Positions 4,731 through 30,455 of a stretch of 54,597 bases of DNA are shown here, piece after piece (position 1 is the first letter of the stretch; each line of letters begins with the position of its first letter). A model generated the notes under the pieces. The model had not been told where the DNA came from and did no database searches. It saw only the letters and a program-made list of their open reading frames with translations. The position numbers and the translations under genes are program-made. Source of the stretch: a virus; the IMG/VR virus record IMGVR_UViG_3300026097_000012, positions 72,953 through 127,549 of that record; one strand, written 5' to 3'.

Positions 4731-5035
4731 TTAAGAGCAAAGACGAATTAAAGAGGAGACCTATTGAGATAGATCTAACGGGTCCAGATGGTAATGTATT
4801 CTATTTAATGGCTACAGCAAAGCGGTTATCGCGCCAGCTTTACGACTTCGTAACAGAAGAGCTTGAAAATGCTCGAGCAGTAGATGAATCATTAAAGCTG
4901 TTATATGACGGAGACTTTAAAACTCCTGAAAACATGGGAGACTGGATCGTAGAAGAAATGATGAAGTCTGATTACGAACATGCAGTTCAAGTTTTTGATA
5001 AATATTTTGGCGCAGTTGTAACACTGTACCGTTAA
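4727..5035 (+). CDS. Hypothetical phage protein (102 aa)
   Basis: Translationally coupled to the preceding gene by an ATGA overlap. A short N-terminal beta part (IDLTGPDGNVFYLMATAKR) precedes helices rich in acidic residues. The phrase TGPDGNVFYLM is typical of a small, broadly distributed phage family of unknown role. No catalytic residues are evident. Confidence 0.7.
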   Translation: MIKSKDELKRRPIEIDLTGPDGNVFYLMATAKRLSRQLYDFVTEELENARAVDESLKLLYDGDFKTPENMGDWIVEEMMKSDYEHAVQVFDKYFGAVVTLYR

Positions 5036-5048
5036 CTACGGAGTAACT

Positions 5049-5306
5049 ATGGAAGAAGTAATAAACTTAATATCCGACCGAGACGAGATACTCGAGGACA
5101 AGGTGGCCGAGTTTCAGAAGAAACTAATTGACATACATCCTAAATTTAAAGTCGGACAGGTAATTCTTTTTTGGGGAGGATATAATAACGATATCCGATA
5201 CCGATCTGAAATAATTGGATTTAACGAGGACGGAGAAATCTACGTTATGTGGGATTGTTATTGGTTCCCTATTAGAGATGAAGAATCAAGAGAAATAGAA
5301 TTATAA
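5049..5306 (+). CDS. Hypothetical phage protein (85 aa)
   Basis: Preceded by ACTACGGAGT, whose GGAG lies 6 bases before ATG and could act as a ribosome site, which is rare in this genome. The C-terminal half (KVGQVILFWGGYNND, EIYVMWDCYWFPI) is beta-rich and aromatic, like a small SH3/KOW-type barrel. No family can be named. Confidence 0.7.
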   Translation: MEEVINLISDRDEILEDKVAEFQKKLIDIHPKFKVGQVILFWGGYNNDIRYRSEIIGFNEDGEIYVMWDCYWFPIRDEESREIEL

Positions 5307-5330
5307 ACGGGTTTGTTTAAGTTAGATGGA

Positions 5331-5354
5331 ACCTCAACTTCGGTTGGGGTTTCG
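5331..5354 (+). terminator. Intrinsic terminator
   Basis: Stem AACC-AAC with a TTCG loop. The element GTTTGTTTAAGTTA lies just upstream at 5312-5325 and is the reverse complement of this unit's own leader. Confidence 0.7.
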
Positions 5355-5413
5355 TCGTTTAGAGCGGTAAGCTTAGCGACGTGCCCGAGGAGGGTTGGCT
5401 CAGAAAGCTTTGA

Positions 5414-5478
5414 CTACGGAGTTCACCGTGCACGCCGGGACCAGTGGGATCCCGGTACACAAGAGCACGGCTGGCCCT
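5414..5478. repeat. Composite element, copy 1 (ACTACGGAGT - GGGACCAG - CACGGCTGGCCCT)
   Basis: The 10-mer ACTACGGAGT is followed by GGGACCAG and then CACGGCTGGCCCT (5466-5478). The same three blocks occur in the same order and almost the same spacing at 24490-24553. It lies in the gap between a terminator and a promoter. Confidence 0.55.
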
Positions 5479-5499
5479 TAGAGAAATGCACAAAAATAT

Positions 5500-5561
5500 T
5501 CTCAGGATTTTTTATAATGAAGAATAATTCTTATATTTAACTATAACTTAAAACAAACACG
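5500..5561 (+). promoter_or_regulatory. Phage-type promoter and leader
   Basis: TATATTTA at 5532-5539, leader TATAACTTAAAACAAAC, ATG 5562. Confidence 0.8.
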
Positions 5562-5771
5562 ATGAGTAATTTTATAGATCACATCAAATTAGCAACAGAG
5601 AATATAGTTCTATGTAGTGGTATATGTTCTAAGAAAGAGCATTACGAGTACGCTGAGAAGATGGAAAAGATGCTTAAGCATCAGTTAAAAGAGGAGTTAA
5701 CTGAAATTGTAAATGATCACGAGATGATGGAAGAAAGACTTTGTGAATTTATTCAAAAACTAGGAGTATGA
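5562..5771 (+). CDS. Small helical phage protein (69 aa)
   Basis: An all-helical acidic protein. The segment KKEHYEYAEKMEKMLK resembles the E-x-Y-E-x-C-A helix found at the C-terminus of five other small proteins in this window, so it may be a distant member of that family. Its TGA overlaps the next ATG. Confidence 0.65.
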   Translation: MSNFIDHIKLATENIVLCSGICSKKEHYEYAEKMEKMLKHQLKEELTEIVNDHEMMEERLCEFIQKLGV

Positions 5772-5932
5772 AAAAGAAACCGACAATGACCAAAGCTCAA
5801 TTAACTCAGAGAGTTAATGAAGAAGCAAAGAGAATGCGAGAAGACATTAAAAGACAAGGAGGCAATCTTACCTTTGCTGAATGCAAGAAGGAGGCTCGTA
5901 AAGTATTCATGGAAGAATTCGAAATAGTTTAA
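5768..5932 (+). CDS. Small charged helical protein (54 aa)
   Basis: ATGA overlap with the preceding gene. The protein is Lys/Arg/Glu-rich and predicted to be a helix or helical hairpin (MTKAQLTQRVNEEAKRMRED). No family is recognised. Overlap and position in the unit support it. Confidence 0.55.
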   Translation: MKKKPTMTKAQLTQRVNEEAKRMREDIKRQGGNLTFAECKKEARKVFMEEFEIV

Positions 5933-6014
5933 GTCTAGGACACCCAATTCTCTTAGACATTTAATCTTACTTCAAAGAGATTATCTTATCATAGAGGGAC
6001 CCGAGTTAATCACA

Positions 6015-6045
6015 AGAGGAATCTAAACAGGTTCCTCTTTTTTTA
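6015..6045 (+). terminator. Intrinsic terminator
   Basis: Perfect 7-bp stem AGAGGAA / TTCCTCT with an 8-T tail, 83 bases after the stop at 5932. Confidence 0.8.
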
Positions 6046-6171
6046 TCTCTACTTATCGAGCAAGTCGATAGGTTTCAAGAGAGAGGAGAGCTCGCTCGTC
6101 TCTGTTTGAGCCAGTGTGCTTTCGATCCTAACCTAGAGACCTCGACCTAGAGTATTTCAAAAATAAGTATA

Positions 6172-6232
6172 ATTATATTTTAGGTTATCAATTATTATTC
6201 TTATATTTAATTATAACTTAAAACAAACAGAT
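6172..6232 (+). promoter_or_regulatory. Phage-type promoter and leader
   Basis: TATATTTA at 6202-6209, leader TATAACTTAAAACAAAC, ATG 6233. Confidence 0.8.
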
Positions 6233-6388
6233 ATGTATTCATTATATTGTAGCTACTACGACAAAGAGTTTAATTCCCTTGAGGAGCTAATTGAGGACGT
6301 GACCATCAATGGCATGGACCCAAACTATGAGGTGACCAGAGATGGCAAGGGTATTGGAGAGAACGCCATAGATTTTATTCAATTTTAA
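6233..6388 (+). CDS. Small hypothetical protein (51 aa)
   Basis: Starts at the expected distance from a phage leader and is followed 10 bases later by the next gene. The product begins MYSLYCSYYDKEF and is acidic. It resembles the small phage proteins that begin with a short beta strand and a helix, but no family is named. Confidence 0.6.
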   Translation: MYSLYCSYYDKEFNSLEELIEDVTINGMDPNYEVTRDGKGIGENAIDFIQF

Positions 6389-6398
6389 AAATAATATT

Positions 6399-6611
6399 AT
6401 GGATAAGCCAAAACTATACGTACTTATGTCTTATGATGAAGATGGTACCGACACATCTATATTCTTAGACAAAGATGAAGCGTTAGAAGAATTCGAAAGA
6501 GCAAGTGGAGACGACAAGGTCGTAGGAGAAGTAGAAGAATACAAATCCTTCGGACAAGGAGCATGGGGAGATTGGTATGGAATCAAAATAATTAAGAAAT
6601 CTGATGGTTAA
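6399..6611 (+). CDS. Hypothetical phage protein (70 aa)
   Basis: A compact alpha/beta pattern: strand (LYVLMSYDEDG), acidic helix (KDEALEEFERASG), then a Gly/Trp-rich strand. Such proteins are frequent in phage early regions. The end overlaps the next gene by 8 bases. Function unknown. Confidence 0.7.
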   Translation: MDKPKLYVLMSYDEDGTDTSIFLDKDEALEEFERASGDDKVVGEVEEYKSFGQGAWGDWYGIKIIKKSDG

Positions 6612-6855
6612 GTGGGATAAGAAAATAGAAGACAGGCACATGAAGGGAAATACTCCCTTCGGTGAGGTCTGGATCCGGTTTGACCGGGAAGGTAAAGCAA
6701 TCGGTTTATATACCTGTTTTGGCGATACTCAGAAATGGATTCCGGACGAAGAGTGGATGCAAGATCTCGAAGGAGCCCAGCTCAGATTAGAGGAACTTAC
6801 AGAAGATACCAAACGTTTACGTGATTGGGGTGAGGGACTACGGAGTAAAGATTAA
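6604..6855 (+). CDS. Hypothetical phage protein (83 aa)
   Basis: Overlaps the previous gene. The N-terminal half is beta-rich (GEVWIRFDREGKAIGLY) and the C-terminal half is a long acidic helix. A copy of ACTACGGAGT (6837-6846) forms the last sense codons (LRSKD). No known domain. Confidence 0.7.
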   Translation: MVKWDKKIEDRHMKGNTPFGEVWIRFDREGKAIGLYTCFGDTQKWIPDEEWMQDLEGAQLRLEELTEDTKRLRDWGEGLRSKD

Positions 6856-6919
6856 ATTACATTATATTCTAAAACTGAGACCAGAATTACCTGTATAAGA
6901 AATAAATAATACTATAGAC

Positions 6920-7120
6920 ATGGAAAGCCAAATACATTCAATAATCGATCAATGGAAAGAAGAAACTGGTAATCAGAAGTCTATCTCGTCTGACTCGATT
7001 AAGGTTAAGTATGCAGACCGTGAGGTAGGGATATATACTATTTATCTTATGTTAAATCCTACAGTAAGGATTAAAGCATTGCTGAATGGCCCTGCTTGGA
7101 AAATCATAGAATTAAAATGA
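6920..7120 (+). CDS. Hypothetical phage protein (66 aa)
   Basis: Sixty-four bases after the previous gene and without an obvious promoter, so probably the same unit. The protein is small, alpha/beta and not recognised. Its TGA overlaps the ATG of the next gene at 7117. Confidence 0.65.
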   Translation: MESQIHSIIDQWKEETGNQKSISSDSIKVKYADREVGIYTIYLMLNPTVRIKALLNGPAWKIIELK

Positions 7121-7410
7121 GACTTAACGAACCTTTTACTAAACTACTAACGTCAGTAGATGACCAGCTCGGAAGAGACGAAGAATCTATACACCTATTT
7201 GAATGGGTACTAGAAGAACACTATGAATCTAAAATTATAGAGAACATGGATTTTTTTCAAGAAAGGCCTGATCTTCGCTCAATTCAAAACGAACAAATGC
7301 TTCATGAATTAGATGTAATGGAAGCCTACTTCGTATCAAAGGAAGAGTATGAGAAATGCGCGTCAATCGTAAAGATTCGTTCTGATTTAAAACAAATTAT
7401 TTCTGCATAA
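7117..7410 (+). CDS. UVR-like small protein, paralogue A
   Basis: The start at 7117 is preferred over 7096 because it gives an ATGA overlap. The C-terminal segment (LHELDVMEAYFVSKEEYEKC, then ASIVKIRSDLK) forms a helical hairpin of the type L-x3-M-x2-YF-x3-EEYE-x-C-A-x-I. Closely similar tails occur in the genes at 7853, 15177, 17971 and 22669. The shape resembles the UVR motif of UvrB/UvrC and ClpC, a protein-contact hairpin. Function unknown. Confidence 0.7.
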   Translation: MRLNEPFTKLLTSVDDQLGRDEESIHLFEWVLEEHYESKIIENMDFFQERPDLRSIQNEQMLHELDVMEAYFVSKEEYEKCASIVKIRSDLKQIISA

Positions 7411-7466
7411 TATTTTTTTATTCCAAATAAGTTTCTTATATTTACTTTATAACTTAAAACAAGGCA
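7411..7466 (+). promoter_or_regulatory. Phage-type promoter and leader
   Basis: T-tract and TTCCA (7412-7424), TATATTTA at 7437-7444. The leader TATAACTTAAAACAAGG differs from the norm at its 3' end (CAAGG instead of CAAAC). Confidence 0.8.
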
Positions 7467-8574: not shown

Positions 8575-9294
8575 ATGTACGAAGAGATTTATAACCTATG
8601 TTCCGTAAAGAACAAGGGATCTGTTTTTCAAAACGGATCGGATAAGATTACTCCACGAGTAGAATGGATCTTGAACTTCCTAATGGATAACAAGATGCCA
8701 TTCATACTCGATGAGTTTCCTGTTAAAGACGGAACAGGTTATAATATTATCCTTACTGGAGAGTCAGGTAAATGGGTTACATGCCATCATGATATTGTAA
8801 ACCCTAAGTCTGATAATGCAAATGACAATTCATGTTCTATTATAAATGCTATCTCGTTAAAACAACTTGCTCCTCATATTAATGTAGCAATACTCGATGG
8901 AGAAGAGCCAGGTGGTCTAGGATCAAATCGCCTTTCCTCTCAAATGAAAGCGGGTGACTACGGAGTAATTGATTGGATTCTAAATCTAGAGCTAACAGGT
9001 ATAGGAGGTAAAGATTTTCTGATCTGTAACTCTAATATGGACAAGTCACTAAGTAAACGAGTAAGAGATCTCTTTATATGCGATATCATTGGAGTACCAT
9101 TTAACGACTCAGTTATATTTAGAAAGAACGGTTTTGATTCTATAGTTATTAACCCTCTTCCTAGAATGGAGAACGGAAAATTAGATATGAGTGTCCTATT
9201 TAGATGTCATTCAATGAGTGATTCAGTAGATAAGATCTCAATAGAAGATATGAAAGTATTTACAGAAGAAGTTTTACTTCCGATCGTAAGTTAA
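8575..9294 (+). CDS. M28-like zinc aminopeptidase
   Basis: The 239 residues show a co-catalytic zinc peptidase layout: HHD at 71-73, ND at 83-84 within NANDNS, GEE at 109-111 (catalytic acid E110 and ligand), LEL at 138-140, and a C-terminal RCHSMSDSVDKI supplying the last histidine. This order matches M28/M20-type peptidases. No signal peptide is present, so it should act in the host cytoplasm. Possible roles are peptide recycling or cleavage of a specific host peptide; this is inference. ACTACGGAGT at 8957-8966 encodes part of GDYGV. A terminator follows. Confidence 0.7.
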   Translation: MYEEIYNLCSVKNKGSVFQNGSDKITPRVEWILNFLMDNKMPFILDEFPVKDGTGYNIILTGESGKWVTCHHDIVNPKSDNANDNSCSIINAISLKQLAPHINVAILDGEEPGGLGSNRLSSQMKAGDYGVIDWILNLELTGIGGKDFLICNSNMDKSLSKRVRDLFICDIIGVPFNDSVIFRKNGFDSIVINPLPRMENGKLDMSVLFRCHSMSDSVDKISIEDMKVFTEEVLLPIVS

Positions 9295-10742: not shown

Positions 10743-10783
10743 TCCTATAATATGTTTACTACGGAGTAGTTCATTATACAGAC

Positions 10784-13022: not shown

Positions 13023-13046
13023 AAACAGTGACTACGGAGTAATAAG

Positions 13047-14925: not shown

Positions 14926-15177
14926 ATGACAGGACAAGATGTTGATTCACTAATAAGATACGGAGCTACTGACCGAGTACGCAAACATATTAAAAAACTA
15001 GGTATGAAGTCTAGAATGCGTCTGCTTAGAGACTGTGTACCTAACGTTAATGCTACTACGGAGTCACTTAAATTCTTTAAAGAAAACTTCTCAAAGGAAA
15101 TAGGAGCTCTAATGATGGCGGAACAAGACATAGATAAAGCCGTGGCCTTATATAATGAGGCAAAAAAATTAAAGTAA
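14926..15177 (+). CDS. Hypothetical helical protein (83 aa)
   Basis: All-helical and basic in its first half (RVRKHIKKLGMKSRMRLL). ACTACGGAGT (15055-15064) encodes the TTES stretch. It ends in TAATGA so that the next gene begins at its stop. No family known. Confidence 0.65.
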   Translation: MTGQDVDSLIRYGATDRVRKHIKKLGMKSRMRLLRDCVPNVNATTESLKFFKENFSKEIGALMMAEQDIDKAVALYNEAKKLK

Positions 15178-16511: not shown

Positions 16512-17240
16512 ATGAAAAATTACAAGCAAAAATCAGAGAGTTTAGATAGATATTTCAAATCTATCCAAGACCTCAACCCATTAGCTAAATCCGAAGAAAT
16601 CGAATTAGCGAAAAAAGCAAAAGCTGGAGATACTCGAGCTATGAACAAGCTAGTTGAGCACAACTTAAAAATTGTGGTAACAATAGCTAATAAGAACGTA
16701 GGTCGTGGAATCGATGTGGACGACTTGATCCAACAAGGAAACTTAGGATTATTCGAAGCGGCTCAACGCTTCGATCCTGAAGCAGGTGTTAGATTCTCTA
16801 CATTCGCAGGAACTAGAGTCCTAAAGATGATGAATCAATTAATTGACACGTGTGGGAGAGTCGTACGAATCCCCGTAAACCAGGAATATAAAAGATATCT
16901 TGCTTTGAAAAAAGGTGAAGAGGTTGAAAACCTTAATCCTGTAAAGATTGATGACTTTGTTCAAGATGACAAAGGTAAGTCTAAAGCAGATTCTGGAATA
17001 CTATCGGTGGGGCCATCGATTGAAGAAGAGCACAACATTGAAGACTTCAAAGTTCGTACGACAACGCTTCTATCCGGTCTAAAAGAACGAGACAGAAAGA
17101 TTATAAAGCTTTACTTTGGAATCGACTGTCCTGATGCTTTGCCTACTAAGGAAATCGCGGAAGAGGTAAACTTAACTCAAATCAGAGTATGTCAGATTAT
17201 CAACTCTGCGAAGAAGCAACTTCAATTAGCCATCCAGTAA
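16512..17240 (+). CDS. Sigma-70 family RNA polymerase sigma factor
   Basis: The 242 residues align with region 1.2 (SLDRYFKSIQDL), region 2 (LVEHNLKIVVTIANKNVGRG, DLIQQGNLGLFEAAQRFDP), a short region 3 (VVRIPVNQ) and region 4 (GLKERDRKIIKLYFGID plus a helix-turn-helix KEIAEEVNLTQIRVCQII). In region 2.4 the housekeeping pattern YAxWWIRQAI is replaced by FAGTRVLKMMNQLI, so the -10 element recognised should differ from the host's. It probably directs host polymerase to the repeated TATATTTA promoters in this window, including its own. Confidence 0.92.
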   Translation: MKNYKQKSESLDRYFKSIQDLNPLAKSEEIELAKKAKAGDTRAMNKLVEHNLKIVVTIANKNVGRGIDVDDLIQQGNLGLFEAAQRFDPEAGVRFSTFAGTRVLKMMNQLIDTCGRVVRIPVNQEYKRYLALKKGEEVENLNPVKIDDFVQDDKGKSKADSGILSVGPSIEEEHNIEDFKVRTTTLLSGLKERDRKIIKLYFGIDCPDALPTKEIAEEVNLTQIRVCQIINSAKKQLQLAIQ

Positions 17241-17526: not shown

Positions 17527-17981
17527 AAAAGCTATTAGCAATATCTATCCTCGGAATACTGTGTTACTACGGAGTAACGTATTATAACTACATGAACAAT
17601 GGAGTTACGTATGTTGATCCTAACTTAGAGACCTTGGTCGAAGAGTGGAAGTCTGAAGTGGAAGAGCACGGCATCGACCTGAAAGATAGGTATCATAGAA
17701 TCCGAAGGATAGAGATTGTTAGTGACTACGGAGTAAAGAACCTGGCAGGTCAATGTAACTACACAACAAGAGAGATAGGAATAGGTAAAGAACAAGTATT
17801 AAAAGGAAGGTATACTACAATGACAGTACTTTGGCACGAGCTCGGACATTTTGTATTCGAACTCGAGCATCAAGATAGAATCTCTATCATGAATTCCGAA
17901 ACCTTAAGTGAAGAGTATTACAGAAAGCATTGGGAAATACTGAAAGTCAATTACATAAAACAAATCAAAGATGGAATATAG
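17523..17981 (+). CDS. Metzincin-like zinc metalloprotease with N-terminal anchor
   Basis: Residues 105-116 read HELGHFVFELEH, giving HExxH plus a third histidine; SIMN at 121-124 fits a Met-turn, as in metzincins. Residues 1-22 (MKKLLAISILGILCYYGVTY) are hydrophobic and should anchor or export the protein, placing the active site in the periplasm. At 152 residues it is small for a metzincin. ACTACGGAGT occurs twice in it (17566 and 17725). It may cleave an envelope protein of the host; substrate unknown. Confidence 0.75.
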   Translation: MKKLLAISILGILCYYGVTYYNYMNNGVTYVDPNLETLVEEWKSEVEEHGIDLKDRYHRIRRIEIVSDYGVKNLAGQCNYTTREIGIGKEQVLKGRYTTMTVLWHELGHFVFELEHQDRISIMNSETLSEEYYRKHWEILKVNYIKQIKDGI

Positions 17982-20136: not shown

Positions 20137-21279
20137 ATGATTGAATTAAAAGGATCTAAAAAGGAACAATCGGTAAGAAACTGGTTTAATAAAAAGCATA
20201 ATGGAGTTGTGCCTAACTCAAAGGTGATTGACCTATTTAAAGTATTCGAGGTCGAAGTACCTGGAATTTCTTATGGCTGTCTAAACGGTACCATGAAAAA
20301 GATCGTGGCAGAAGGTCACGTTGACATGTCAGCTCCACAAAGTAAAGGTGGGACTACGGAGTCCACTACTCCAGTTGAGCCAGTAGAGGCAGAAATTGTA
20401 ACAGTGGAAGACATGGATTTTCCTGACTTCGGTCTACATAGAACCGGTAAAGAAATCGATCATCTATTCTCAGATCATGAGGAAGGTGGAGGTCAATACG
20501 GCGGTACGGTAACCATTATAATTGGAGAGTCAGGAGTAGGGAAGTCTACCTTATTATTAGACGCTCTTGCTTCAATACAAAATGTAAACCCTGAAGCTAA
20601 GGTATTATATGTATCTAGTGAGATGACGAAAAATGATATCGGATTCTACTACAAAAAAACTCCGGCAATTGGAAAGGTACCGACCCTTCTCTTAATGAGC
20701 CATGTAAAGGACGGAAGCATGGATCAGGTAATTCAAGACGAGTTCAATAAGGACTATGACATTATCTTATTAGACTCTTACCAAGATGTTGTTGTGAAAC
20801 TGAAAGAGGTTAAGGGATGGAAATCTACTTACGCTGAGTCTTGGTTAACTAACATCATGATCGATGCGGCAGAGAATAATGGTGCTGCGATCTGGGCAAT
20901 TCAACACATGACTAAAGGAGGTCAGTATGTAGGGTCAACTTACCTAAAGCACGCAACTACAGCCATGCTTGAGATCATGTTCGATGAGGCTGGACAGAGA
21001 TACGTAGAGTTCTCAAAGAACAGAAGAGGTGGATCAGCTGTTGGTAATAGACTTTACTTTAGACTGATCGACGGTGATGTAGTGTACGATGCAAATCGAT
21101 TTAAAGAAACTAAGGAGCTCAAAGAAATGGAGGACAACGAGTCTATACGTCAAACTGATCTCTCTAAAAAGTTCGAAGAGATATTTGTATTTGGAGCTAA
21201 TGAAGCGTCTAAGGACGAGGAATCAGACGAAGGCGCCAACAAGATAGAGCTAGAAATAGTTGAACCTTCTGAAGAATAG
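20137..21279 (+). CDS. RecA-fold ATPase, RadA-like
   Basis: The 380 residues have Walker A GESGVGKST at 130-138, Walker B DIILLDS at about 208-214 and a later SKNRRGGS that resembles the KNRFG motif specific to RadA/Sms. The N-terminal 60 residues look like a winged-helix domain (SVRNWFNKKHNGVVPNSKVI); no zinc finger is present. RadA proteins drive branch migration in recombination, so a role in phage recombination or replication fork repair is likely. A DnaB-type helicase relative is the alternative. The acidic tail (about 330-380) may bind partners. It is followed by the DUF932 gene. Confidence 0.8.
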   Translation: MIELKGSKKEQSVRNWFNKKHNGVVPNSKVIDLFKVFEVEVPGISYGCLNGTMKKIVAEGHVDMSAPQSKGGTTESTTPVEPVEAEIVTVEDMDFPDFGLHRTGKEIDHLFSDHEEGGGQYGGTVTIIIGESGVGKSTLLLDALASIQNVNPEAKVLYVSSEMTKNDIGFYYKKTPAIGKVPTLLLMSHVKDGSMDQVIQDEFNKDYDIILLDSYQDVVVKLKEVKGWKSTYAESWLTNIMIDAAENNGAAIWAIQHMTKGGQYVGSTYLKHATTAMLEIMFDEAGQRYVEFSKNRRGGSAVGNRLYFRLIDGDVVYDANRFKETKELKEMEDNESIRQTDLSKKFEEIFVFGANEASKDEESDEGANKIELEIVEPSEE

Positions 21280-21344: not shown

Positions 21345-22535
21345 ATGGGAAAACGAGAAGTAACGGACGCACAGTTCCAAGAAATTAAAAACAAAGTCGG
21401 CCAAGCTGAGTCGGCTGTAAAAAGAGTACCTATATCTGCGATCTCCGTAGATCATGAGACTCTTAGACGAGGAAGAATCCTCGTTGGTGGTCAGCCGGTT
21501 AAAGTAAGTTCAGGCTTTTTCTCAAAGCTCGGACAAATGCTAAAGATCTCTACTTCTCTTACGAGAAAGATGATTGAGAAAGGAGACACGCAGATTGCGG
21601 CTGCTCTTATTAATGGTCTTAAGGACTATTCAGTTAAGAACAAAAAGGACAACGACGTAATGTTAATTGCAAACGTTAACTCTAAAGAAATCGTTGACAT
21701 TTGTACTCCTAATAGATATAAGAGAGTTACGAATGATACTTTGTTCGATGTAACAGAACGCATCTTGAACGACAACTCTTCTCTTATCTTAGAGACAGTG
21801 GACTTCAATCCGAATACCGGTAAAGCATCAATTAACTTTCTTAATCAGGAAGAGGTTGGATTTGCACAGGCAGGTAAAGATGAGTTCTTTAAATTCGGGT
21901 TCTCTCTTATTCAAACGAACAAAGATACCATTGTGGAATCTTACAATCAACGTTTGATCTGTACTAATGGACTCCGTACTTCACTAGGTGGAGGGGTTAT
22001 TGGGGGAACTTCAAACAAGGGAATGAGTTTCGACGATAAGTTCAGACTAGGCGGAACCTCAACTGAGGATATTCGAATCTTCTTGAACAAAATCGAAGAC
22101 ATGAAGAAAGCTAACTTCGTACCTGGTACATTTGAAGGAGCTATCAACCGTGCAGTAGGAACTAAAGCTTCGTACCTTGAAGTTGAAAAAGCCTGGAAAG
22201 CTGCACATGCCAAAGTAGAGGATATTAATCCTGATATGCGAAAGCAATATCAAGCTGCGATGGCAAGAGACTTCTTCCATGCTTATGGAAACACAATGAA
22301 TCGAATTAAGAACAAAGGAACTGATCCATTGGGTCTTAATGAAAAGCAAAAGTCATTCATTAAAACTGACATGTCGATCTGGGATGTAGTTAATTCAATG
22401 ACATTCCTAGGTTCAAATAACTCAGGGTTCGAATTGGCAAACAAGCACGAACTAAAGTATTCAGCTGGGGAGCTGTTCGCGAAAGGCACAAAGGAAGGTT
22501 ACGACCTGGAATTTGCGCAATACGCAAACCTATAA
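21345..22535 (+). CDS. DUF932-type phage/plasmid protein (396 aa)
   Basis: The central part (TGKASINFLNQEEVGFAQAG, SYNQRLICTNGLRTS) matches the DUF932 / phage-plasmid-like protein family, often encoded next to recombination and replication genes. Its biochemical role is not known; relatives are suspected to work with RecA/RecT-type systems. The upstream 65 bases have a weak leader (GAGTATAATAGATATAACC) but no TATATTTA, so it may share the RadA transcript. A terminator follows. Confidence 0.8.
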   Translation: MGKREVTDAQFQEIKNKVGQAESAVKRVPISAISVDHETLRRGRILVGGQPVKVSSGFFSKLGQMLKISTSLTRKMIEKGDTQIAAALINGLKDYSVKNKKDNDVMLIANVNSKEIVDICTPNRYKRVTNDTLFDVTERILNDNSSLILETVDFNPNTGKASINFLNQEEVGFAQAGKDEFFKFGFSLIQTNKDTIVESYNQRLICTNGLRTSLGGGVIGGTSNKGMSFDDKFRLGGTSTEDIRIFLNKIEDMKKANFVPGTFEGAINRAVGTKASYLEVEKAWKAAHAKVEDINPDMRKQYQAAMARDFFHAYGNTMNRIKNKGTDPLGLNEKQKSFIKTDMSIWDVVNSMTFLGSNNSGFELANKHELKYSAGELFAKGTKEGYDLEFAQYANL

Positions 22536-23549: not shown

Positions 23550-24143
23550 TTAATCCTTCTCGCTCGGTAAGGCTCTCGCAAGCTTAGCTTCTTCTATTAG
23601 CTTAGCCAAATCCTCGCTCTGTTCTTCTAGATAATAGGGATCAGTTAACACGGGATTCATTATCACAACATCTGTTCCATGGTACTTGCATAATTCGGCA
23701 AAGAATTCGTATGCCACACGTGATATCCTACACTTAGTATCGACCACCACTGCGTCTACCTTTCCGGCCATAATATCTCTTAGTAGCTGGTGGAACTGAG
23801 GGCGTCCAGACTGCGAGTGATCGGTGCTACTACCAATATCCTCATATATCTTCTCTAGGGAAATACCTCGCTTGGTACAGAAGTGTCGCATTAGATTCTT
23901 CTGAGCCTGTAGCTGGCTCGAGTCCGGCTTAAACCTTTTACCTACCCTTACATAACCTACTATCCAGTGTTCCTTGGTAATTCTTTTACCTACCATGGCG
24001 TAAACATCCTCGTCCCAGTAATTATTCTTACCTTTCTTTCCGTACATCTCGTATTTGTATACACGGATCTTTCCAGATTTAGCGTATCTCTTTAGAGTAG
24101 AATAACTACATCCTAGGACTCTTAGTGCCTCTGTCTTAGTCAT
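23550..24143 (-). CDS. IS607 TnpA-like serine recombinase homologue, catalytic serine missing
   Basis: Residues 1-50 form a MerR-type helix-turn-helix (EALRVLGCSYSTLKRYAKSG). Residues 61-165 match the IS607 serine recombinase core: EDIGSSTDH at 101-109, GRPQFHQLLRDIMAGKVDAV and DTKCRISR near 135-142, KYHGTDVVIMN. In active enzymes the core begins YARVS; here it is YVRVG (64-68), so the nucleophile is replaced by Gly, although S75 and S76 are close by. It is 197 residues, full length for the family. No tnpB follows. It may be a domesticated DNA-binding or regulatory protein, or use a shifted serine. Confidence 0.8.
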   Translation of the reverse strand: MTKTEALRVLGCSYSTLKRYAKSGKIRVYKYEMYGKKGKNNYWDEDVYAMVGKRITKEHWIVGYVRVGKRFKPDSSQLQAQKNLMRHFCTKRGISLEKIYEDIGSSTDHSQSGRPQFHQLLRDIMAGKVDAVVVDTKCRISRVAYEFFAELCKYHGTDVVIMNPVLTDPYYLEEQSEDLAKLIEEAKLARALPSEKD

Positions 24144-24364
24144 ATATGTCTGATTCTTTTAAGTGTTACTACGGAGTCCCTATACACGGACAGGGGAATC
24201 CTTTTAGTTATTTATCAGGAGATAGTGGTTCAAAAAATTAGAAATGAACCTCAGCTGAGCACCAGTCATGATATGTACCTCTACTTCGTCGTCGTCGCCA
24301 ACGTTTGTCCTGGAGCCCGAGGGAAGACGCCCAACCCACGCAACTGTTGACGTTGCCCCCAAAC

Positions 24365-24424
24365 AGGCCGAACGGGCACACGTCGAAAGGGCACAGGCCG
24401 AACGGGCACACGCCGAACGGGCAC
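24365..24424. repeat. 15-bp tandem repeat, four units
   Basis: Units of type AGGCCGAACGGGCAC / ACGTCGAAAGGGCAC repeat four times with few changes. The period is a multiple of three, so both strands appear open, but the composition is unlike phage proteins. Confidence 0.8.
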
Positions 24425-24489
24425 ACCTGGTACAGGAGGACAAGGGACTAGGTGGTATCGGGACCGTAGGTCCACGATCACCAGCTGTA

Positions 24490-24553
24490 CTACGGAGTAA
24501 AACGTGTAGGAGAGGGGGACCAGGTGACGTGTGGCGAGGCCACGGCTGGCCCT
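24490..24553. repeat. Composite element, copy 2
   Basis: CTACGGAGT (24490-24498), GGACCAG near 24518 and CACGGCTGGCCCT (24541-24553), in the same order and spacing as 5414-5478. Confidence 0.55.
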
Positions 24554-24708
24554 GGAGGTCTATAAAAAGGTCTTATACGTCAAGTAACTAGGTCAGTACA
24601 ACTGAGCTGTACTACGGAGTAAGGAGGTATAGGAGATTCTTTTATTTCTTTATTAGTTTATATAGGAGTAGACATAATAGAAGGGTCTATAGTAGTTTTA
24701 TTATTTCT

Positions 24709-24912
24709 TTAATTAGTGGTACCGCGCGGTGACTGGAAAGGGGTGTGAGAAAATCCGTGCGTTAGGAGTGGTAGGCGCTCTAAAACACTCTCAATTCCGA
24801 CAGGAAATATGTTGCCGTGGTTTACAACATAGGCGAGCTTTCCCTTGACTTTATACAATTCTGCGCCTGTACCTCTATAATAGAATTCTAGTCTTGCTCC
24901 CTTATCTCGCAT
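24709..24912 (-). CDS. Hypothetical protein (67 aa)
   Basis: Small, basic, beta-rich (ARLEFYYRGTGAELYKVKGK). The start overlaps the end of the upstream gene by 25 bases. The C-terminus (FSHTPFQSPRGTTN) is low-complexity. No family. Confidence 0.55.
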   Translation of the reverse strand: MRDKGARLEFYYRGTGAELYKVKGKLAYVVNHGNIFPVGIESVLERLPLLTHGFSHTPFQSPRGTTN

Positions 24913-25130
24913 TCTAATATTTTTAATTGGGTTCCGATAGATTTGAGTCTCTCTTCCATTGTGATTAATAAATGAGGTGGAATTCTCTTCTTTATAGAGT
25001 AACCGGTTCCTGCGTTTTTAGTATACATTATTCCGTGGACTTTGAGTCTTAATACCCCTACTGATGTCAAACTATGTTGGAATAAGAGTTGCTCTATTAT
25101 GTGACCCTTTGTCTGATCTACTGGTGTCAT
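24888..25130 (-). CDS. Hypothetical protein (80 aa)
   Basis: Basic alpha/beta protein. Residues 5-11 (DQTKGHI) resemble the QTKG core of the peptide shared by other genes to the right. Overlaps the next gene (24709). No recognised domain. Confidence 0.55.
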   Translation of the reverse strand: MTPVDQTKGHIIEQLLFQHSLTSVGVLRLKVHGIMYTKNAGTGYSIKKRIPPHLLITMEERLKSIGTQLKILECEIREQD

Positions 25131-25324
25131 TTGCGTATAATATTATCTTGAGTATTGGGGACTACGGAGTAAACTACAGGCAAATACGGTTCTATAGAAA
25201 AGAGGATACGATCTGCCTCACCGTATATTCCAGTCATAGTAGCCATTCTACCACGAATCTTTATCTCTTCAAATCCATTCCTATTGGAGAAATGTTCCTC
25301 TATTCTCTTACCTAGATCTTGCAT
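25127..25324 (-). CDS. Hypothetical protein (65 aa)
   Basis: Stop overlaps the ATG of 24888-25130 (ATGA). Alpha/beta (RIEEHFSNRNGFEEIKIRGR). ACTACGGAGT on the opposite strand lies within its 3' half. Function unknown. Confidence 0.55.
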   Translation of the reverse strand: MQDLGKRIEEHFSNRNGFEEIKIRGRMATMTGIYGEADRILFSIEPYLPVVYSVVPNTQDNIIRK

Positions 25325-25467
25325 TATATTCCTTTAATAGGATGAGTCTCATGTATGCCAATAATTGATATCATTACCCTATTGTTGGGTTTTATCTTTA
25401 TCCAAAATATCCGGCTTGGAGCCGTCTCTTCGAAGTGAGCTTCTATTAATTGGCCTTGGTTATTCAT
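25324..25467 (-). CDS. Small hypothetical protein (47 aa)
   Basis: ATGA overlap with the upstream gene and TAATG-type overlap with the downstream one make this a clear member of the unit. The product (MNNQGQLIEAHFEETAPSR) is unrecognised. THPIKGI at the C-terminus is a weak echo of the shared TKG peptide. Confidence 0.5.
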   Translation of the reverse strand: MNNQGQLIEAHFEETAPSRIFWIKIKPNNRVMISIIGIHETHPIKGI

Positions 25468-25691
25468 CTCTTTTTATGTAACGGTGGTGGAACATTATAG
25501 AGTTTGCTTAGTGAGAGTAAATAACTATAAGAAGAAGGCATGCCTCCTGTAGCGACTTCCCCTATATGTAGATAAAATCCTTCCCAGTCATTGAGGTAAT
25601 AACCTTTTTCTTGCGGTCTAGGATCCGGGCTATACCTTACCTTGGTCCAGTCATAATCAAATGCTAATCTCATGTCGTCTTCTTCGGCCAT
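25464..25691 (-). CDS. Hypothetical protein (75 aa)
   Basis: Acidic N-terminus, then DPRPQEKGYYLNDWEGFY, in which RPQEKG is a variant of the shared RPQTKG peptide. The stop codon of the gene upstream abuts its start. No fold recognised. Confidence 0.6.
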   Translation of the reverse strand: MAEEDDMRLAFDYDWTKVRYSPDPRPQEKGYYLNDWEGFYLHIGEVATGGMPSSYSYLLSLSKLYNVPPPLHKKR

Positions 25692-25955
25692 TTAATCTTC
25701 AAATAGGTCATTTAAGTAATCATCCCTAAAGCTCATGCCCCCTAATTCGGACTCTTCTGGTGCCTCGAGAACCGGGTCCTTCTTTAATTTAAAATCTGGA
25801 TAGATATCCTTTATGGTTTTAACTGCCATACGTACGGTAGATGGAGCCATTGTATGTCTTCCATGAGCATATCTAATAGCCATCCATGTGATATCATCTA
25901 AGACCTCCTTTAGCTGGTATCGTTCCACTTGAGATAATCCTTTTCTATGTTTCAT
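25692..25955 (-). CDS. Conserved phage protein (87 aa)
   Basis: The central part (ITWMAIRYAHGRHTMAPSTV) belongs to a common phage pattern, M-A-x-R-Y-x-x-GR-x-T, found in small early proteins of unknown function. Mostly helical with an acidic tail (DDYLNDLFED). Confidence 0.65.
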   Translation of the reverse strand: MKHRKGLSQVERYQLKEVLDDITWMAIRYAHGRHTMAPSTVRMAVKTIKDIYPDFKLKKDPVLEAPEESELGGMSFRDDYLNDLFED

Positions 25956-25958
25956 AGT

Positions 25959-26303
25959 TTACTTTTTTAGAAACCATTTTTCTCGATGGCTCTGGATAAT
26001 AATAAATAGTTCTTTTTCCCCTATTGGCTCTAGGTCCGATGGATCATCTGGTTTTACCAATTCGCGATATCTTTCCTTAAAATCTCCCTCGTGTATTAGT
26101 TGATATTTGTCTACATTATTTACTGTAAAAGTAATTAGCAGGGTAAACGGATTAATGAATCTACTGGACGGATTAGAGACGGTCTTAGGTGTTCCGGATT
26201 TCAGGAGTCTAGTTGCTCGCTCTTCCATTCTTTTGGCTATACCAAGCCAAACTCTTCCCAGTCCTGCCTTTAATCTATTACCTCCTATTTCAATTGTCTT
26301 CAT
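25959..26303 (-). CDS. Hypothetical protein (114 aa)
   Basis: Basic N-terminal helical half (GRVWLGIAKRMEERATRLLK) and a beta-rich C-terminal half. No known family. Spaced 3 bases from the next gene. Confidence 0.6.
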   Translation of the reverse strand: MKTIEIGGNRLKAGLGRVWLGIAKRMEERATRLLKSGTPKTVSNPSSRFINPFTLLITFTVNNVDKYQLIHEGDFKERYRELVKPDDPSDLEPIGEKELFIIIQSHREKWFLKK

Positions 26304-26320
26304 CCTTATTGGTTTAATTT

Positions 26321-26656
26321 TTATACATCTGGATATTCTTTTGCCAATCCCTTTAATTGAGGATATCCCTTTATCCTTTTTATTTCTGAATGATACATAC
26401 TCGAACCGGTATCATAACTGTCGATCTCCCCTGTTGCTATTATTATACGATCAAATTTTATATTTAACATCGATGCCAGTTTCATCGGAATCGGTCCATT
26501 CAAAATAGAGTTTTCTATCTTAATATCCTCCTTGCATACTCTACACCAAATATGTTTTTCCCATTCTGACCAAGTAATGTCGTGTCCGCTATCACTCGGA
26601 CATTGGATGTCATATTCAAACGGATGATATGCATAGTGCCAGGTTCTCTTTTTCAT
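26321..26656 (-). CDS. Zinc-binding conserved phage protein (111 aa)
   Basis: The start at 26656 is preferred; a longer frame to 26776 would run through the upstream gene. HYAYHPFEYDIQCPSDSGHD and SEWEKHIWCRVCKEDIK form a Cys/His zinc site (CP..H....WCxxC) typical of a widespread phage family that also carries the LNGPIPMKLASMLNIKFDRI segment. Function unknown. The C-terminal YPQLKGLAKEY is similar to the shared peptide. Confidence 0.75.
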   Translation of the reverse strand: MKKRTWHYAYHPFEYDIQCPSDSGHDITWSEWEKHIWCRVCKEDIKIENSILNGPIPMKLASMLNIKFDRIIIATGEIDSYDTGSSMYHSEIKRIKGYPQLKGLAKEYPDV

Positions 26657-26660
26657 GTGA

Positions 26661-26987
26661 CTACGGAGTAACAATTTTAAGTATAGAATCCGACAGATCC
26701 AATTGTCTGTCCAGTTTTTGCTCCAGTTCTGAAACTCTTTGTGCCAGTTCCAAGTTTTGTTGTTGCAACACTTCAATTACACTGACACCTGAATAAGATG
26801 GATAAGATTGAATGGATGATAATGTTTCTCCAGCAGTATGATGAATAAATATAGTATCGTCATATGGATTCCGTCTAAATCCTCTAGTTTGAGGGCGATT
26901 ATTCTCGTGCACCGCTTTATTCAAACAATGGACCTGATTAGAACATCCCCTGATAATATCCAGTATTGGAGGTAAATTAAGTTCCAT
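26661..26987 (-). CDS. Coiled-coil protein with the RPQT[KR]G peptide (108 aa)
   Basis: Residues 29-40 read NRPQTRGFRRNP, one of the best copies of the shared peptide. The last 40 residues (VLQQQNLELAQRVSELEQKL) form a leucine-zipper-like coiled coil, so the protein is probably an oligomer. The stop codon TAG lies inside a reverse copy of ACTACGGAGT. Confidence 0.65.
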   Translation of the reverse strand: MELNLPPILDIIRGCSNQVHCLNKAVHENNRPQTRGFRRNPYDDTIFIHHTAGETLSSIQSYPSYSGVSVIEVLQQQNLELAQRVSELEQKLDRQLDLSDSILKIVTP

Positions 26988-27255
26988 GGTCGAATGTTAC
27001 AGTATATTTCATTTTTAATTCAGTTAACATTGAGCTGAGATCATCAATTGACTTTCTATTGAAGGTATAGTTTTGTTTATAAGTATAATCTGTTTCAAGG
27101 TCATAATATCTAACGAATTCCTTTTCTCTAATACCTTTTGTATGTGGACGACAGGCTTTAAGTATTTCGTTAAATTTTGCACTCTCCTCTTCATTCCTTC
27201 CTGATTCGAGGCAAAGGAGTTTATACATTCTTCCTGTTATTGGCTTATCATTCAT
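26977..27255 (-). CDS. Hypothetical protein with the RPHTKG peptide (92 aa)
   Basis: ACRPHTKGIREKEFVRYYD (around residues 33-51) contains the shared peptide. The N-terminal half is helical (LLCLESGRNEEESAKFNEIL). Overlaps its neighbours by 8-11 bases. Function unknown. Confidence 0.65.
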   Translation of the reverse strand: MNDKPITGRMYKLLCLESGRNEEESAKFNEILKACRPHTKGIREKEFVRYYDLETDYTYKQNYTFNRKSIDDLSSMLTELKMKYTVTFDHGT

Positions 27256-27778
27256 GTCTCTTTAGTTTATTTGGATAAGAAGTCAGTCCACGGTTCTGCG
27301 GGTTAACATCAGGTTTCCATTTGTTCTTTAATACTTCATTCCAGTAATTTGTTACAGTTTTAGTTCCATTCTTATGACTTGACCAAATACATGGATGTCT
27401 TTCTCTTGCAAGTTTAAGTCTTTCTTTTTTAGGGAGAGAATGATCTGTGTCTAGTTCATATGCTAACCAACATTCCCAATAATGATTTTCATGTTGAGCT
27501 TTAATAATTACGGCAATTTGCCATTTAAGGAATACAAATGATAACACAGGAGCCCATTCAAATCTAAATTCATCGTATTTTGTTTTCCATCCTAATGTAA
27601 CCCAATCGAATCCTATCTGCTTTGGAATCGCTTTTTGATGTCCAGGTTTATCCGGATTATCCACCCATCGTCTTGGTAGAAAATAAGGAGTTCCAATTGC
27701 TACCTTACCCATGTACCATTTAAGTTTAGGTCTCTTAAATGGGGAGCAAAATGCCTTTAATGGAGTGAACTTTTTCAT
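27248..27778 (-). CDS. Conserved aromatic-rich phage protein (176 aa)
   Basis: The start at 27778 avoids overlapping the upstream gene. The phrases SPFKRPKLKWYMGKVAIGTP, GFDWVTLGWKTKYDEFRFEW and HYWECWLAYELDTDHSLPKK mark a widespread phage family of unknown role, rich in Trp and Tyr. NPQNRGL near the C-terminus is a weak copy of the shared peptide. Confidence 0.75.
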   Translation of the reverse strand: MKKFTPLKAFCSPFKRPKLKWYMGKVAIGTPYFLPRRWVDNPDKPGHQKAIPKQIGFDWVTLGWKTKYDEFRFEWAPVLSFVFLKWQIAVIIKAQHENHYWECWLAYELDTDHSLPKKERLKLARERHPCIWSSHKNGTKTVTNYWNEVLKNKWKPDVNPQNRGLTSYPNKLKRHE

Positions 27779-27780
27779 AA

Positions 27781-28071
27781 TCAATGTATGTATTCGCTTT
27801 GGTCTATTCCATATAGATTGTCTCTGTTTTTTCCTTCTATTTGAGCTTCGTGTTTCCACCCAGGAGTTAAATCTGATATATTAGTCAATGCTGACGTATA
27901 GTCCCGAAAATTGTCCCAATCACCTGCACAGTTATAAACTACTCTTACTGCAGAATTGGTGTGAGTAGGGATCTCCTTAACCATCCCGTTTTCCCACTTA
28001 CCTTCCGACATGTAGTGTTCAGGCTGGTAACATACTCTATCTCCGATATTTAATTTACTAATGTCTATCAT
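27781..28071 (-). CDS. KOW/SH3-like conserved phage protein (96 aa)
   Basis: The N-terminal LNIGDRVCYQPEHYMSEGKW, then NGMVKEIPTH and VRVVYNCAGDWDNF, is typical of a small beta-barrel phage family. The barrel may bind nucleic acid or a partner; the role is unknown. Confidence 0.7.
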   Translation of the reverse strand: MIDISKLNIGDRVCYQPEHYMSEGKWENGMVKEIPTHTNSAVRVVYNCAGDWDNFRDYTSALTNISDLTPGWKHEAQIEGKNRDNLYGIDQSEYIH

Positions 28072-28080
28072 TTGCTCATA

Positions 28081-28320
28081 TTAAAATGGTAAATCAAGTG
28101 CTAGCATTTTACAATGTTCAGGATTAACTTCAAACTCTTCCATGACTTTTAGGATATCTTCGTTACTTGCTCCAAATGTAGAACACAGTTCAACTATCAT
28201 TGGGTCTTCATCCTCATCTGTGTCAGCTTCTTTGAATACGTCTATGAAATATCCAAGTACATGATCGAATCCATATGCTACTATCGTATCTCCGTCTATT
28301 TTTTTGCTATATCTACTCAT
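28081..28320 (-). CDS. Hypothetical protein, paralogue of 31735-31952 (79 aa)
   Basis: It shares TIVAYGFDHVLGYFIDVF, then CSTFGASNEDILKVMEEFEV with the product of 31735-31952, so the two arose by duplication. Acidic and helical. This copy is intact. Function unknown. Stop and start overlap with the upstream gene. Confidence 0.7.
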   Translation of the reverse strand: MSRYSKKIDGDTIVAYGFDHVLGYFIDVFKEADTDEDEDPMIVELCSTFGASNEDILKVMEEFEVNPEHCKMLALDLPF

Positions 28321-28649
28321 AATCTTTCTATTGCTACTTCAAATGATTCAACTGTTCTTTGAGCAGGAAACTGATATGTGGTTTGACTTAAGGTATCAGA
28401 AGATCCGCTTATGGTTTCTTCATGGACGTAATCGTAATTGCGATATGATCTTTGAACTGAAATAACCTTAAACTTTCCACGTATTCCTTTTCTAAATAGT
28501 TTTCTATTTGGAAATCTAGCGTCATGCCAGTGTTCATCCATTAGGGTCGTTATCCAAATCTCTTCTCCTATTTCTGGAACCTTGTGAGTTGGAACAGTTA
28601 GAACATTATCTTCGCCTAACCAATAAGATATTTCTGATTTATCTTTCAT
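28317..28649 (-). CDS. Hypothetical beta-rich protein (110 aa)
   Basis: Mostly strands (NVLTVPTHKVPEIGEEIWIT) with basic loops. ATGA overlaps on both sides. No known domain; KGIRGK is a weak echo of the shared peptide. Confidence 0.6.
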   Translation of the reverse strand: MKDKSEISYWLGEDNVLTVPTHKVPEIGEEIWITTLMDEHWHDARFPNRKLFRKGIRGKFKVISVQRSYRNYDYVHEETISGSSDTLSQTTYQFPAQRTVESFEVAIERL

Positions 28650-28945
28650 ACGATTTCTCCTCTTTTAATTTCTTTCATTCGATTAATAAAATTAACTTCT
28701 TTTTGAATAAGAGATTTTACTTTCTTTTTAGAATGATTTGGATTAGTGATATCAATAGGAATTGAAAAAAGTTCGTTATACGTTACAACCTCTACATCTG
28801 GTCCAAATAGTATAAATTTTTTCTTCTTTTTTACAATAGGCGCAGTATCATAAAAATGAGTAATTTCCGAATCAAATGTTTCAGCTCCAGTCAGATCATA
28901 TGATTCATAGAAAAATAAACGTCCGTTAAATTCTAATTCTTTCAT
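28646..28945 (-). CDS. Hypothetical protein (99 aa)
   Basis: First gene after a well-formed promoter on the minus strand. Contains HFYDTAPIVKKKKKF; YDTAP also occurs in the product of 29643-30455, and the DNA under it shares GGCGCAGTATCATA. The C-terminus is a basic helix. Function unknown. Confidence 0.65.
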   Translation of the reverse strand: MKELEFNGRLFFYESYDLTGAETFDSEITHFYDTAPIVKKKKKFILFGPDVEVVTYNELFSIPIDITNPNHSKKKVKSLIQKEVNFINRMKEIKRGEIV

Positions 28946-28982
28946 ATGTTAAATATACTAAATTAGATCGGGATTAAAAAAT
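28946..28982 (-). promoter_or_regulatory. Phage-type promoter on the minus strand
   Basis: Reverse complement: TTTTTTAATCC, then TATATTTA at 28958-28951, 13 to 5 bases before ATG 28945. The same architecture as the plus-strand units but with almost no leader. Confidence 0.65.
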
Positions 28983-28989
28983 TAATAGA

Positions 28990-29172
28990 CTATAAATATT
29001 TAATTATTTTCACTGCCTCGTCATGAGGGTGCACGTCAAATACATTTTTCTTACATTTTTTACATTCAACCTCCCATTCTGATCCGTAATATACGTTTCT
29101 AAATTCATGTTTACATGAATTGGCAAGTCCACGAGTTTGAGGACGGAATATGACAGTTTGTCTACGTTTTCC
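28990..29172 (-). CDS. Cys-rich ORF without ATG, in frame behind 29173-29382
   Basis: Sixty sense codons follow the TAA of the upstream gene in the same frame. They encode FRPQTRGLANSCKHEF and a later VECKKCKKN, that is, the shared peptide plus a C-H-C-C zinc site, so the frame looks coding. No ATG, GTG or TTG start is obvious. Options are stop-codon read-through, an unusual start, or a start lost by mutation or sequencing error. Confidence 0.45.
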   Translation of the reverse strand, partial: GKRRQTVIFRPQTRGLANSCKHEFRNVYYGSEWEVECKKCKKNVFDVHPHDEAVKIIKYL

Positions 29173-29382
29173 TTAAACAGGATCTTCAATGTCAACATTG
29201 CCATCTCCTATTTGAATTCGTTGTCCATCCTCTACCACTAAAATAGTTTTAGTAACGTTCCACTGTCCGTCTCCTTTAGGAGCGTATTCAGGTTGAATGT
29301 GTACGTCGATTCGTAATTCACCATTAGCGAACATTTCTACAATCGCGTCTCGTACTTGTTTTCTAGATAATTTCTGTTCCAT
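29173..29382 (-). CDS. Hypothetical protein (69 aa), possible read-through partner
   Basis: N-terminal basic helix (EQKLSRKQVRDAIVEMFANG) followed by strands (RIDVHIQPEYAPKGDGQWNV). It ends IEDPV then TAA, after which the same frame continues for 60 codons. Function unknown. Confidence 0.65.
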   Translation of the reverse strand: MEQKLSRKQVRDAIVEMFANGELRIDVHIQPEYAPKGDGQWNVTKTILVVEDGQRIQIGDGNVDIEDPV

Positions 29383-29412
29383 CTTAAATTGGGTTTCCTA
29401 GTTGTTCTCTCT

Positions 29413-29646
29413 TTACTCAGCCCCTTCGTCTGCGAACGGGTTTTCTTCAAAATGTATATGCGTGTTTCCATTAGCGTCAATCGATTCCAAAACTTTAACA
29501 TCGTCTATTGTATATTTCTTAAACTTCTTATTAAGATCTGTTAAGTCCTCGACTTTTACGATCTTTGATTTCTTTACAAAAACATCATCTAACAGTGCGT
29601 GGCCTGAATCTTCCCATCTTGAATATTTTACAAATACTGTCTTCAT
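29413..29646 (-). CDS. Hypothetical acidic protein (77 aa)
   Basis: Alpha/beta, Lys and Asp-rich (KYTIDDVKVLESIDANGNTH). The stop and start overlaps link it to the 270-residue protein upstream. No family. Confidence 0.6.
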   Translation of the reverse strand: MKTVFVKYSRWEDSGHALLDDVFVKKSKIVKVEDLTDLNKKFKKYTIDDVKVLESIDANGNTHIHFEENPFADEGAE

Positions 29647-30455
29647 GATGTGAACCAGTTTAGTATACGTCTAAAGAATCCAGGATTCTTAATTGGCTCC
29701 GATTTTACTGGATCCTTGAACTCAGTTTCACCTTTATATTTCTTAACTGCTTTCTTAAGGTTCTCATTAGGAGGCTTAGGATTTTCAATAGATTCACAGA
29801 ATAATTCAGCATCCTCTTCAGATTTAATTATACTATCATCCCATTCATCGATTGCATCACGATCATCATCATCAAGATCAGGAAGACGTTCCACTGATTC
29901 AGGCTCAGTGAACATTAGAGATTCTTGTACTTTATCCATTTCTTCAGTATTTCCCTCTTCAATTCCAAGTAGTTCTCCAATTCCATCACCAATTATCTTT
30001 TTTCCTTTAGCAATATTCTCTCTGTCTACTTTGATATGGTTCTCACAATAGTCAGCCATCCATGCTAATTTATAAGGATCAGTAATTCCTTGTGCTTCTA
30101 ACATTGGTCTCCATTTCTCAATAAGATATGGATCATTAGATGTACCAAATGAATCTGCTGGCTTATCGAATCCTTCATGCATTACTACGGAGTCAACCTT
30201 TGGCTCTTCAGCTTCAACTGGCGCAGTATCATACACGTTTGGATCATCAGTTTCAATGATAACAAAACACTTGCTACTTCCTGGATCCTTAGGAGAGTAC
30301 GCATGATATCCATTACAATATTTGTTAGGATTCTTAGTAGACAAACACATGTCACCCTTATGAGCTACGATGTGTTCGTACCAATATCTAAATCCATTCA
30401 TTGATACTATCCCCTTTTCTGGTAAAATTTCTGTCACTTCTTTATTCTCTTCCAT
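29643..30455 (-). CDS. Large acidic phage protein (270 aa)
   Basis: An N-terminal 70-residue part with Cys residues (DMCLSTKNPNKYCNGYHAYS), YDTAPV near residue 75, a middle with PYLIEKWRPMLEAQGI and a very acidic C-terminal half. It ends with a short amphipathic basic stretch (FFRRILNWFTS) that may touch membrane or a partner. No known domain; probably modular. Confidence 0.65.
   Translation of the reverse strand: MEENKEVTEILPEKGIVSMNGFRYWYEHIVAHKGDMCLSTKNPNKYCNGYHAYSPKDPGSSKCFVIIETDDPNVYDTAPVEAEEPKVDSVVMHEGFDKPADSFGTSNDPYLIEKWRPMLEAQGITDPYKLAWMADYCENHIKVDRENIAKGKKIIGDGIGELLGIEEGNTEEMDKVQESLMFTEPESVERLPDLDDDDRDAIDEWDDSIIKSEEDAELFCESIENPKPPNENLKKAVKKYKGETEFKDPVKSEPIKNPGFFRRILNWFTS

Follow-up and report, generated by a model that had tools for sequence, protein, structure and literature searches.

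Why would a phage carry sixteen identical copies of one short asymmetric word, ACTACGGAGT, all on a single strand and all within about 25 kb of its genome? The window analyzed here, 54,597 nt, is the last 54.6 kb (positions 72953–127549) of the 127,549-base virus record IMGVR_UViG_3300026097_000012, a myovirus-type phage with genes for a baseplate wedge and a large terminase. A first-pass annotation of the window had listed sixteen copies of the 10-mer on the plus strand and no reverse complement. Each of its coordinates is exact, and the count of 16 on the plus strand and 0 on the minus strand holds for both the window and the complete record; the remaining 73 kb lack the word on both strands. 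The chance expectation of about 0.05 was reproduced by dinucleotide shuffles, and a third-order Markov model expects 0.10. Indeed, ACTACGGAGT has the highest z-score of any 10-mer in the record; at other k-mer lengths, its competitors are tRNA and promoter-leader repeats. Allowing one mismatch adds only a single copy in the window, at 21971 on the minus strand, where 1.8 would be expected. Thus, there is no halo of decayed copies around the exact ones.

Could the word be a by-product of genes or RNA? The copies (all on the plus strand) are found in gaps, in the block of plus-strand genes that ends at ~22.6 kb, and in the block of minus-strand genes (24168–30184). The first, at 5035–5044, overlaps the stop codon of an open reading frame (ORF; 4727–5035) and lies 4 nt ahead of an ATG at 5049; the GGAG that had been singled out as its one visible use at the RNA level is real. 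It is followed by copies at 5413–5422, 6837–6846, 8957–8966, 10758–10767 (intergenic), 13031–13040 (intergenic, directly before a terminator-like hairpin), 15055–15064, 17566–17575, 17725–17734, and 20353–20362, the last of these within a gene for a RadA/DnaB-like ATPase (F7). Three copies, at 24168–24177, 24489–24498, and 24611–24620, form a hub discussed below, and the remaining copies are at 25161–25170, 26660–26669 (in the minus-strand block), and 30184–30193 (within a minus-strand gene at 29643–30455). Genic copies are read in all three frames (DYGV/YYGV, LRSK, and TTES), as the earlier annotation had said, and lie in genes on both strands, and coding constraint was rejected as the cause on these grounds. 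ACTACGGAGT differs from its own reverse complement at 2 of its 10 positions, the palindromic variants being ACTCCGGAGT and ACTACGTAGT. The proposed extension of its ACT/AGT ends to a TTACT/AGTAA stem does not hold up: at the first three flanking positions, 23, 25, and 22 of 50 pairs could form, against 23.2, 20.8, and 18.0 expected by chance, and the copies share no common fold. A hairpin or RNA element was therefore rejected; no Rfam family was found in the window.

Is the array peculiar to this phage? Relatives were gathered through terminase relatives, a 14-mer scan, and scans with three proteins of the small-gene block, with a TnpA-like protein (F18), and with a conserved protein of the same region (F20). 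The array is present in at least 22 further contigs, with 197 of 198 copies on one strand per contig. Seven of these contigs carry 6 (G009), 2 (G027), 9 (G030), 8 (G051), 9 (G058), 6 (G095), and 16 (G096) copies, and fifteen others together contain 142 nine-mers. Members of this family of uncultured phages, whose hosts are probably Bacteroidota, have up to 18 exact copies, on a single strand and confined to one genome region. Because some contigs form near-identical pairs or sets, these numbers represent about ten independent lineages. The consensus, drawn from the 153 distinct contexts in which the fixed core CTACGGAG was located, is K-A-CTACGGAG-T-A-A-A, with the first A sometimes replaced by T or G. 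Copies are found near the same genes across relatives, unevenly distributed within one region. The collection of cultured phages holds no close relative, and the array is absent from distant relatives with ~30%–35% terminase identity (huge uncultured phages, Flavobacterium MaF61, PTm1, and PAU). Hits of the 14-mer scan among viral contigs were chiefly single chance matches, in both orientations.

What exactly is conserved? The small-gene block is syntenic between this phage and its relatives. Every relative carries the motif antisense to the block genes and, wherever the terminase and ligase genes could be located, antisense to them as well. In this phage, all 16 copies are sense to the same block genes, terminase, and ligase. 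A tree of F7 nests this phage among the motif-antisense relatives (support 89/96), so the sense orientation is a derived switch, known from one record. Some sites here are near, rather than at, the relatives' sites; re-establishment nearby explains this better than exact flipping in place. The strand of the copies does not change across the convergent gene junction at ~22.6 kb, and several relatives have a copy on the common strand inside an oppositely oriented F18 gene. Hence, the conserved feature is the common strand of the copies, not their direction along or against any gene. This freedom with respect to genes speaks against promoters, RNA elements, stoperators, and a fixed polarity of the Chi or KOPS (FtsK-orienting polar sequence) type. 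Likewise, the common-strand rule makes a fixed link to the direction of replication or packaging unlikely; a reversed set would be unexpected if direction had to match either process, unless those had flipped too. The array is real, conserved, and polar at the level of DNA, and the word behaves like a directional signal rather than like a part of genes or RNA. The earlier proposal that selection acts on DNA polarity, rather than on protein or RNA, is strongly supported by the use of one strand, by independence of frame and gene direction, and by recurrence in at least 22 relatives.

Which protein might read such a signal? The hub (24144–24708), a mostly non-coding, G+C-rich stretch with three sites, lies on the 5′ side of the F18 gene (23550–24143, minus strand), and its first copy is 24 nt upstream of the F18 start. 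F18 is a 197-aa protein with HTH_17 (helix-turn-helix) and Resolvase domains (Pfam PF00239, E = 9e-13), resembling the serine recombinase TnpA of IS607. It matches the NCBIfam IS607 transposase model with E = 5e-23, which is below that model's cut-off; its sequence relatives in the Protein Data Bank include ISC1926 TnpA, and its predicted fold matches IS607 TnpA catalytic domains (mean predicted local distance difference test score, pLDDT, of 72). The canonical serine-recombinase motif YxRVS includes the catalytic serine. In every member of the F18 family this serine is replaced, giving YxRV[G/N/A/P] or YCRTA, and in several relatives a copy of the word lies within the F18 gene beside the lost serine, encoding GTTESD. 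A TnpB-type partner (PF07282) was found in 0 of 10 records. The loss of the serine and the lack of TnpB indicate that F18 is not part of a live transposon, and a live IS607 element was rejected as the source of the array. All nine motif-bearing records that extend to this end of the cluster have exactly one F18, and in each it lies within the cluster. A separate scan of viral contigs for F18 relatives returned only motif-bearing contigs, including a new record, G095.

The sites are also concentrated beside F18. In nine genomes, with near-identical copies left out, the 1 kb 5′ of the F18 centre contains 27 sites, where 7.7 are expected and where 20,000 simulations gave a maximum of 20. Offsets near −86, −412, and −650 from F18 recur in several relatives, and site density outside the hub is mostly 0.3–0.8 per kb. 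By simple ORF-based gene calls, ~60% of sites in relatives are in gaps (~18% expected), as are 5 of the 16 here; the relatives' sites are often 3–60 nt after a stop codon and roughly 100–170 nt before the next start, near terminators. Also within the G+C-rich stretch ahead of F18 is a 15-bp tandem repeat (ACAGGCCGAACGGGC type; 24363–24437) in four copies, and this stretch is a possible origin or regulatory region.

We consider the best explanation, with a probability of roughly 0.4, to be that ACTACGGAGT is the recognition site of F18, which would be a domesticated IS607-type transposase that has lost its serine and kept its N-terminal helix-turn-helix. The TnpA of IS607 itself binds direct repeats, short and asymmetric, that lie next to the gene encoding it. 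We infer binding by F18: a protein of this kind would be expected to bind a short asymmetric word that is repeated in one direction 5′ of a TnpA-like gene. Several copies form a hub 5′ of the F18 gene, in the position that the transposase-binding direct repeats occupy in an IS607 element, and the other copies are spread over ~25 kb of small phage genes. By binding these sites, F18 would join the hub and the scattered sites into a nucleoprotein structure that organizes or controls the region. If sites paired in parallel, all would have to point the same way, while their common direction would be free. Such pairing and its purpose are speculative. It is doubtful, on our estimate, that a dead, directional IS607-derived protein uses direct-repeat sites spread over up to ~25 kb that work only relative to each other, through parallel pairing with the hub; sites of that kind could switch strand as a unit in evolution. 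The hub and the scattered copies are indeed reversed together in this phage, which counts in favor of recognition by F18. The array resembles the repeats of IS607-family TnpA, such as those at the left end of IS1535, in having asymmetric 9–10-bp direct repeats 5′ of a gene that combines a helix-turn-helix with a serine recombinase. It differs in that F18 has no catalytic serine and no TnpB, the repeats are unphased, and most copies are scattered over up to ~25 kb.

Several observations weigh against recognition by F18. First, F18 falls to ~24%–26% identity (G090) while the motif is unchanged. Second, F7 and another protein, F3, are as universal in the cluster as F18. Third, spacing within the hub ranges from 57 to ~330 bp and is not helically phased, unlike the spacing reported for IS1535. 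Fourth, the hub is a long non-coding stretch and the relatives' sites favor gaps, which explains part of the peak. Fifth, one copy among the 198 in relatives, in G084, is on the opposite strand.

The strongest alternative, which we regard as possible but rather unlikely, is that ACTACGGAGT is the target of a strand-specific phage nickase, and that the array marks localized single-strand interruptions in virion DNA such as those of T5, phiKMV-like phages, tf, and Rembedalsseter. Such sites would be limited to one strand, since a chromosome nicked on both would break; the nicked strand can differ between lineages, so this rule explains the wholesale switch seen here. The nick sites of tf and Rembedalsseter are the nearest documented behavior. 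In phage tf, the 14 nicks at TACT/RTGMC are all on the top strand, with uneven spacing and with similar positions in related phages (PMC3517423). Rembedalsseter has 13 nicks on one strand at WACTRTGAC, a motif common to 60 relatives; its sites fall within genes as well as outside them and are concentrated in a single genome region (PMC11780129). In common with the nick sites of the tf/LUZ24 group, the phiKMV group, and T5, the array is a short, near-invariant motif with about a dozen copies, unevenly placed on one strand, inside and outside genes, and kept among divergent relatives. Moreover, the reverse complement of ACTACGGAGT, with its usual leading T, reads TACTCCG and has an unbroken run of 7 bases in common with the phiKMV site CCTA/CTCCGG (chance ~1.5%), whereas the tf site shows no significant likeness (chance 0.30) and the T5 site none (0.77). 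DNA ligase, a further point in favor, was found in 8 of 16 records (in fragments, its absence carries no information), and a PNKP-type phosphatase is encoded near the cluster. On the other hand, no candidate nickase was found in these records: F18 lacks its catalytic serine, and an HNH nuclease (PF01844), considered as the motif's partner, is present in only 4 of 21 records and was rejected as not universal. The preference of the relatives' sites for gaps (~60% vs. 18%) is unlike Rembedalsseter, and nicking does not predict a hub at F18. The array also differs from known nick sites in its word and in its confinement to one block around a TnpA-like gene. Contigs G051, G088, G093, G095, and G027 end within the motif cluster, two of them within ~20 bases of a copy; these ends could reflect repeats, strain variation, or nicks. 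The two explanations are not exclusive; F18 could recruit a nickase. We place the function of the array between a binding array for a domesticated transposase and nick sites; the readings that follow fit less well.

One of these is that the copies are dispersed repressor sites like the stoperators of Cluster A mycobacteriophages, at which F18 or another repressor would halt regional transcription at operon boundaries. Most sites in relatives are indeed in gaps at gene boundaries, near terminators and antisense to block genes, and stoperators too are asymmetric, present in many copies, and read by a partner with a helix-turn-helix, as may be the case here. Mycobacteriophages carry more than 20 stoperators, asymmetric 13-mers located in promoters and short intergenic spaces, whose orientation follows transcription and which fail when reversed (PMC9283540). 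The polarity of ACTACGGAGT instead follows the genome strand, and the whole set changes strand between lineages: copies stay on one strand where genes converge, their orientation toward the same genes is inverted in this phage, and most copies here are genic. These differences make a stoperator-like role improbable.

Another possibility is a site that orients replication or packaging, like Chi and KOPS, with which the earlier annotation compared the word, or like Ter. As with those, ACTACGGAGT is a short, polar word at the level of DNA, and its cluster spans both the convergence of transcription and a local maximum of cumulative GC skew. However, the sites are local rather than genome-wide, lying within ~25 kb and missing from the remaining 100 kb of the record. 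There is no strand switch at an origin or terminus, nor any arm-dependent switch, and this phage and its relatives disagree in how the sites point with respect to terminase, ligase, and block genes, the whole set being reversed. Such a role is therefore quite improbable. Finally, although gene order and content vary in the block and the start of a few homology blocks between relatives coincides exactly with a motif (e.g., G051 13358/G080 29592 and G083 7887/G091 6758), it is very unlikely that the copies are recombination or cassette-exchange sites shuffling the small genes, given that the cluster's sole serine recombinase has no catalytic serine, that most homology boundaries are away from motifs, that many copies are inside genes, and that active, directly repeated sites would delete genes.

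What else does this phage encode? Within the block, F7 (20137–21279, plus strand) is a conserved neighbor in 8 of 8 cases, F20 (21345–22535, plus strand), a 396-aa protein between F7 and F18, is conserved in 7 of 8, and a phage sigma-70 family factor (16512–17240, plus strand) is conserved as well. The structure model of F20 (mean pLDDT of 63) was too poor and was not used. A promoter or leader repeat, TTCTTATATTTA...TATAACTTAAAACAAA, has at least 11 copies directly ahead of plus-strand start codons between 1460 and 20120, and the AACTTAAAACAA leader is also present in relatives. Three copies of GTTGACCAGGGTT-type repeats are found at 680–1298, and a 67-nt direct repeat (85% identical) is found in A+T-rich gaps at 46340–46406 and 48823–48889. 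Outside the window, 26 tRNA genes are located at record positions 50164–60638 (L011/L012), one of them with the anticodon CUA (called tRNA-Pyl). Among ORFs of at least 80 aa, TAG is the stop of 1 of 80 in the first 73 kb and of 13 of 68 at record positions 73–114 kb, as though the first part avoided stops that an amber suppressor could read. A protein with a C-terminal sorting domain of the Por secretion system (type IX secretion system-type; 47887–48813) suggests that the host belongs to the Bacteroidota. The phage also encodes a pair for nicotinamide adenine dinucleotide salvage, nicotinamide phosphoribosyltransferase (50065–51798) and ribose-phosphate pyrophosphokinase (52219–53082). An adenylosuccinate synthetase (L010:5906–7045) matches PHROG 1211, which has a PurZ-type name, so the phage might use diaminopurine. 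Further genes encode a full-length Bax1-I (Bax inhibitor-1 family) membrane protein (37719–38417) and, near the end of the record, a tyrosine recombinase of the phage integrase family (53616–54419).

What does the array mean for phage biology? Arrays of sites on a single strand of phage DNA have been on record since the work on T5 in the 1960s. The phages described here add a new lineage in which such an array is linked to a single conserved protein, a dead IS607-type transposase. They also provide a natural experiment, in the form of one phage with the whole array on the other strand. Together, the link to F18 and the strand-switched phage make both the protein-binding and the nick-site readings directly testable.

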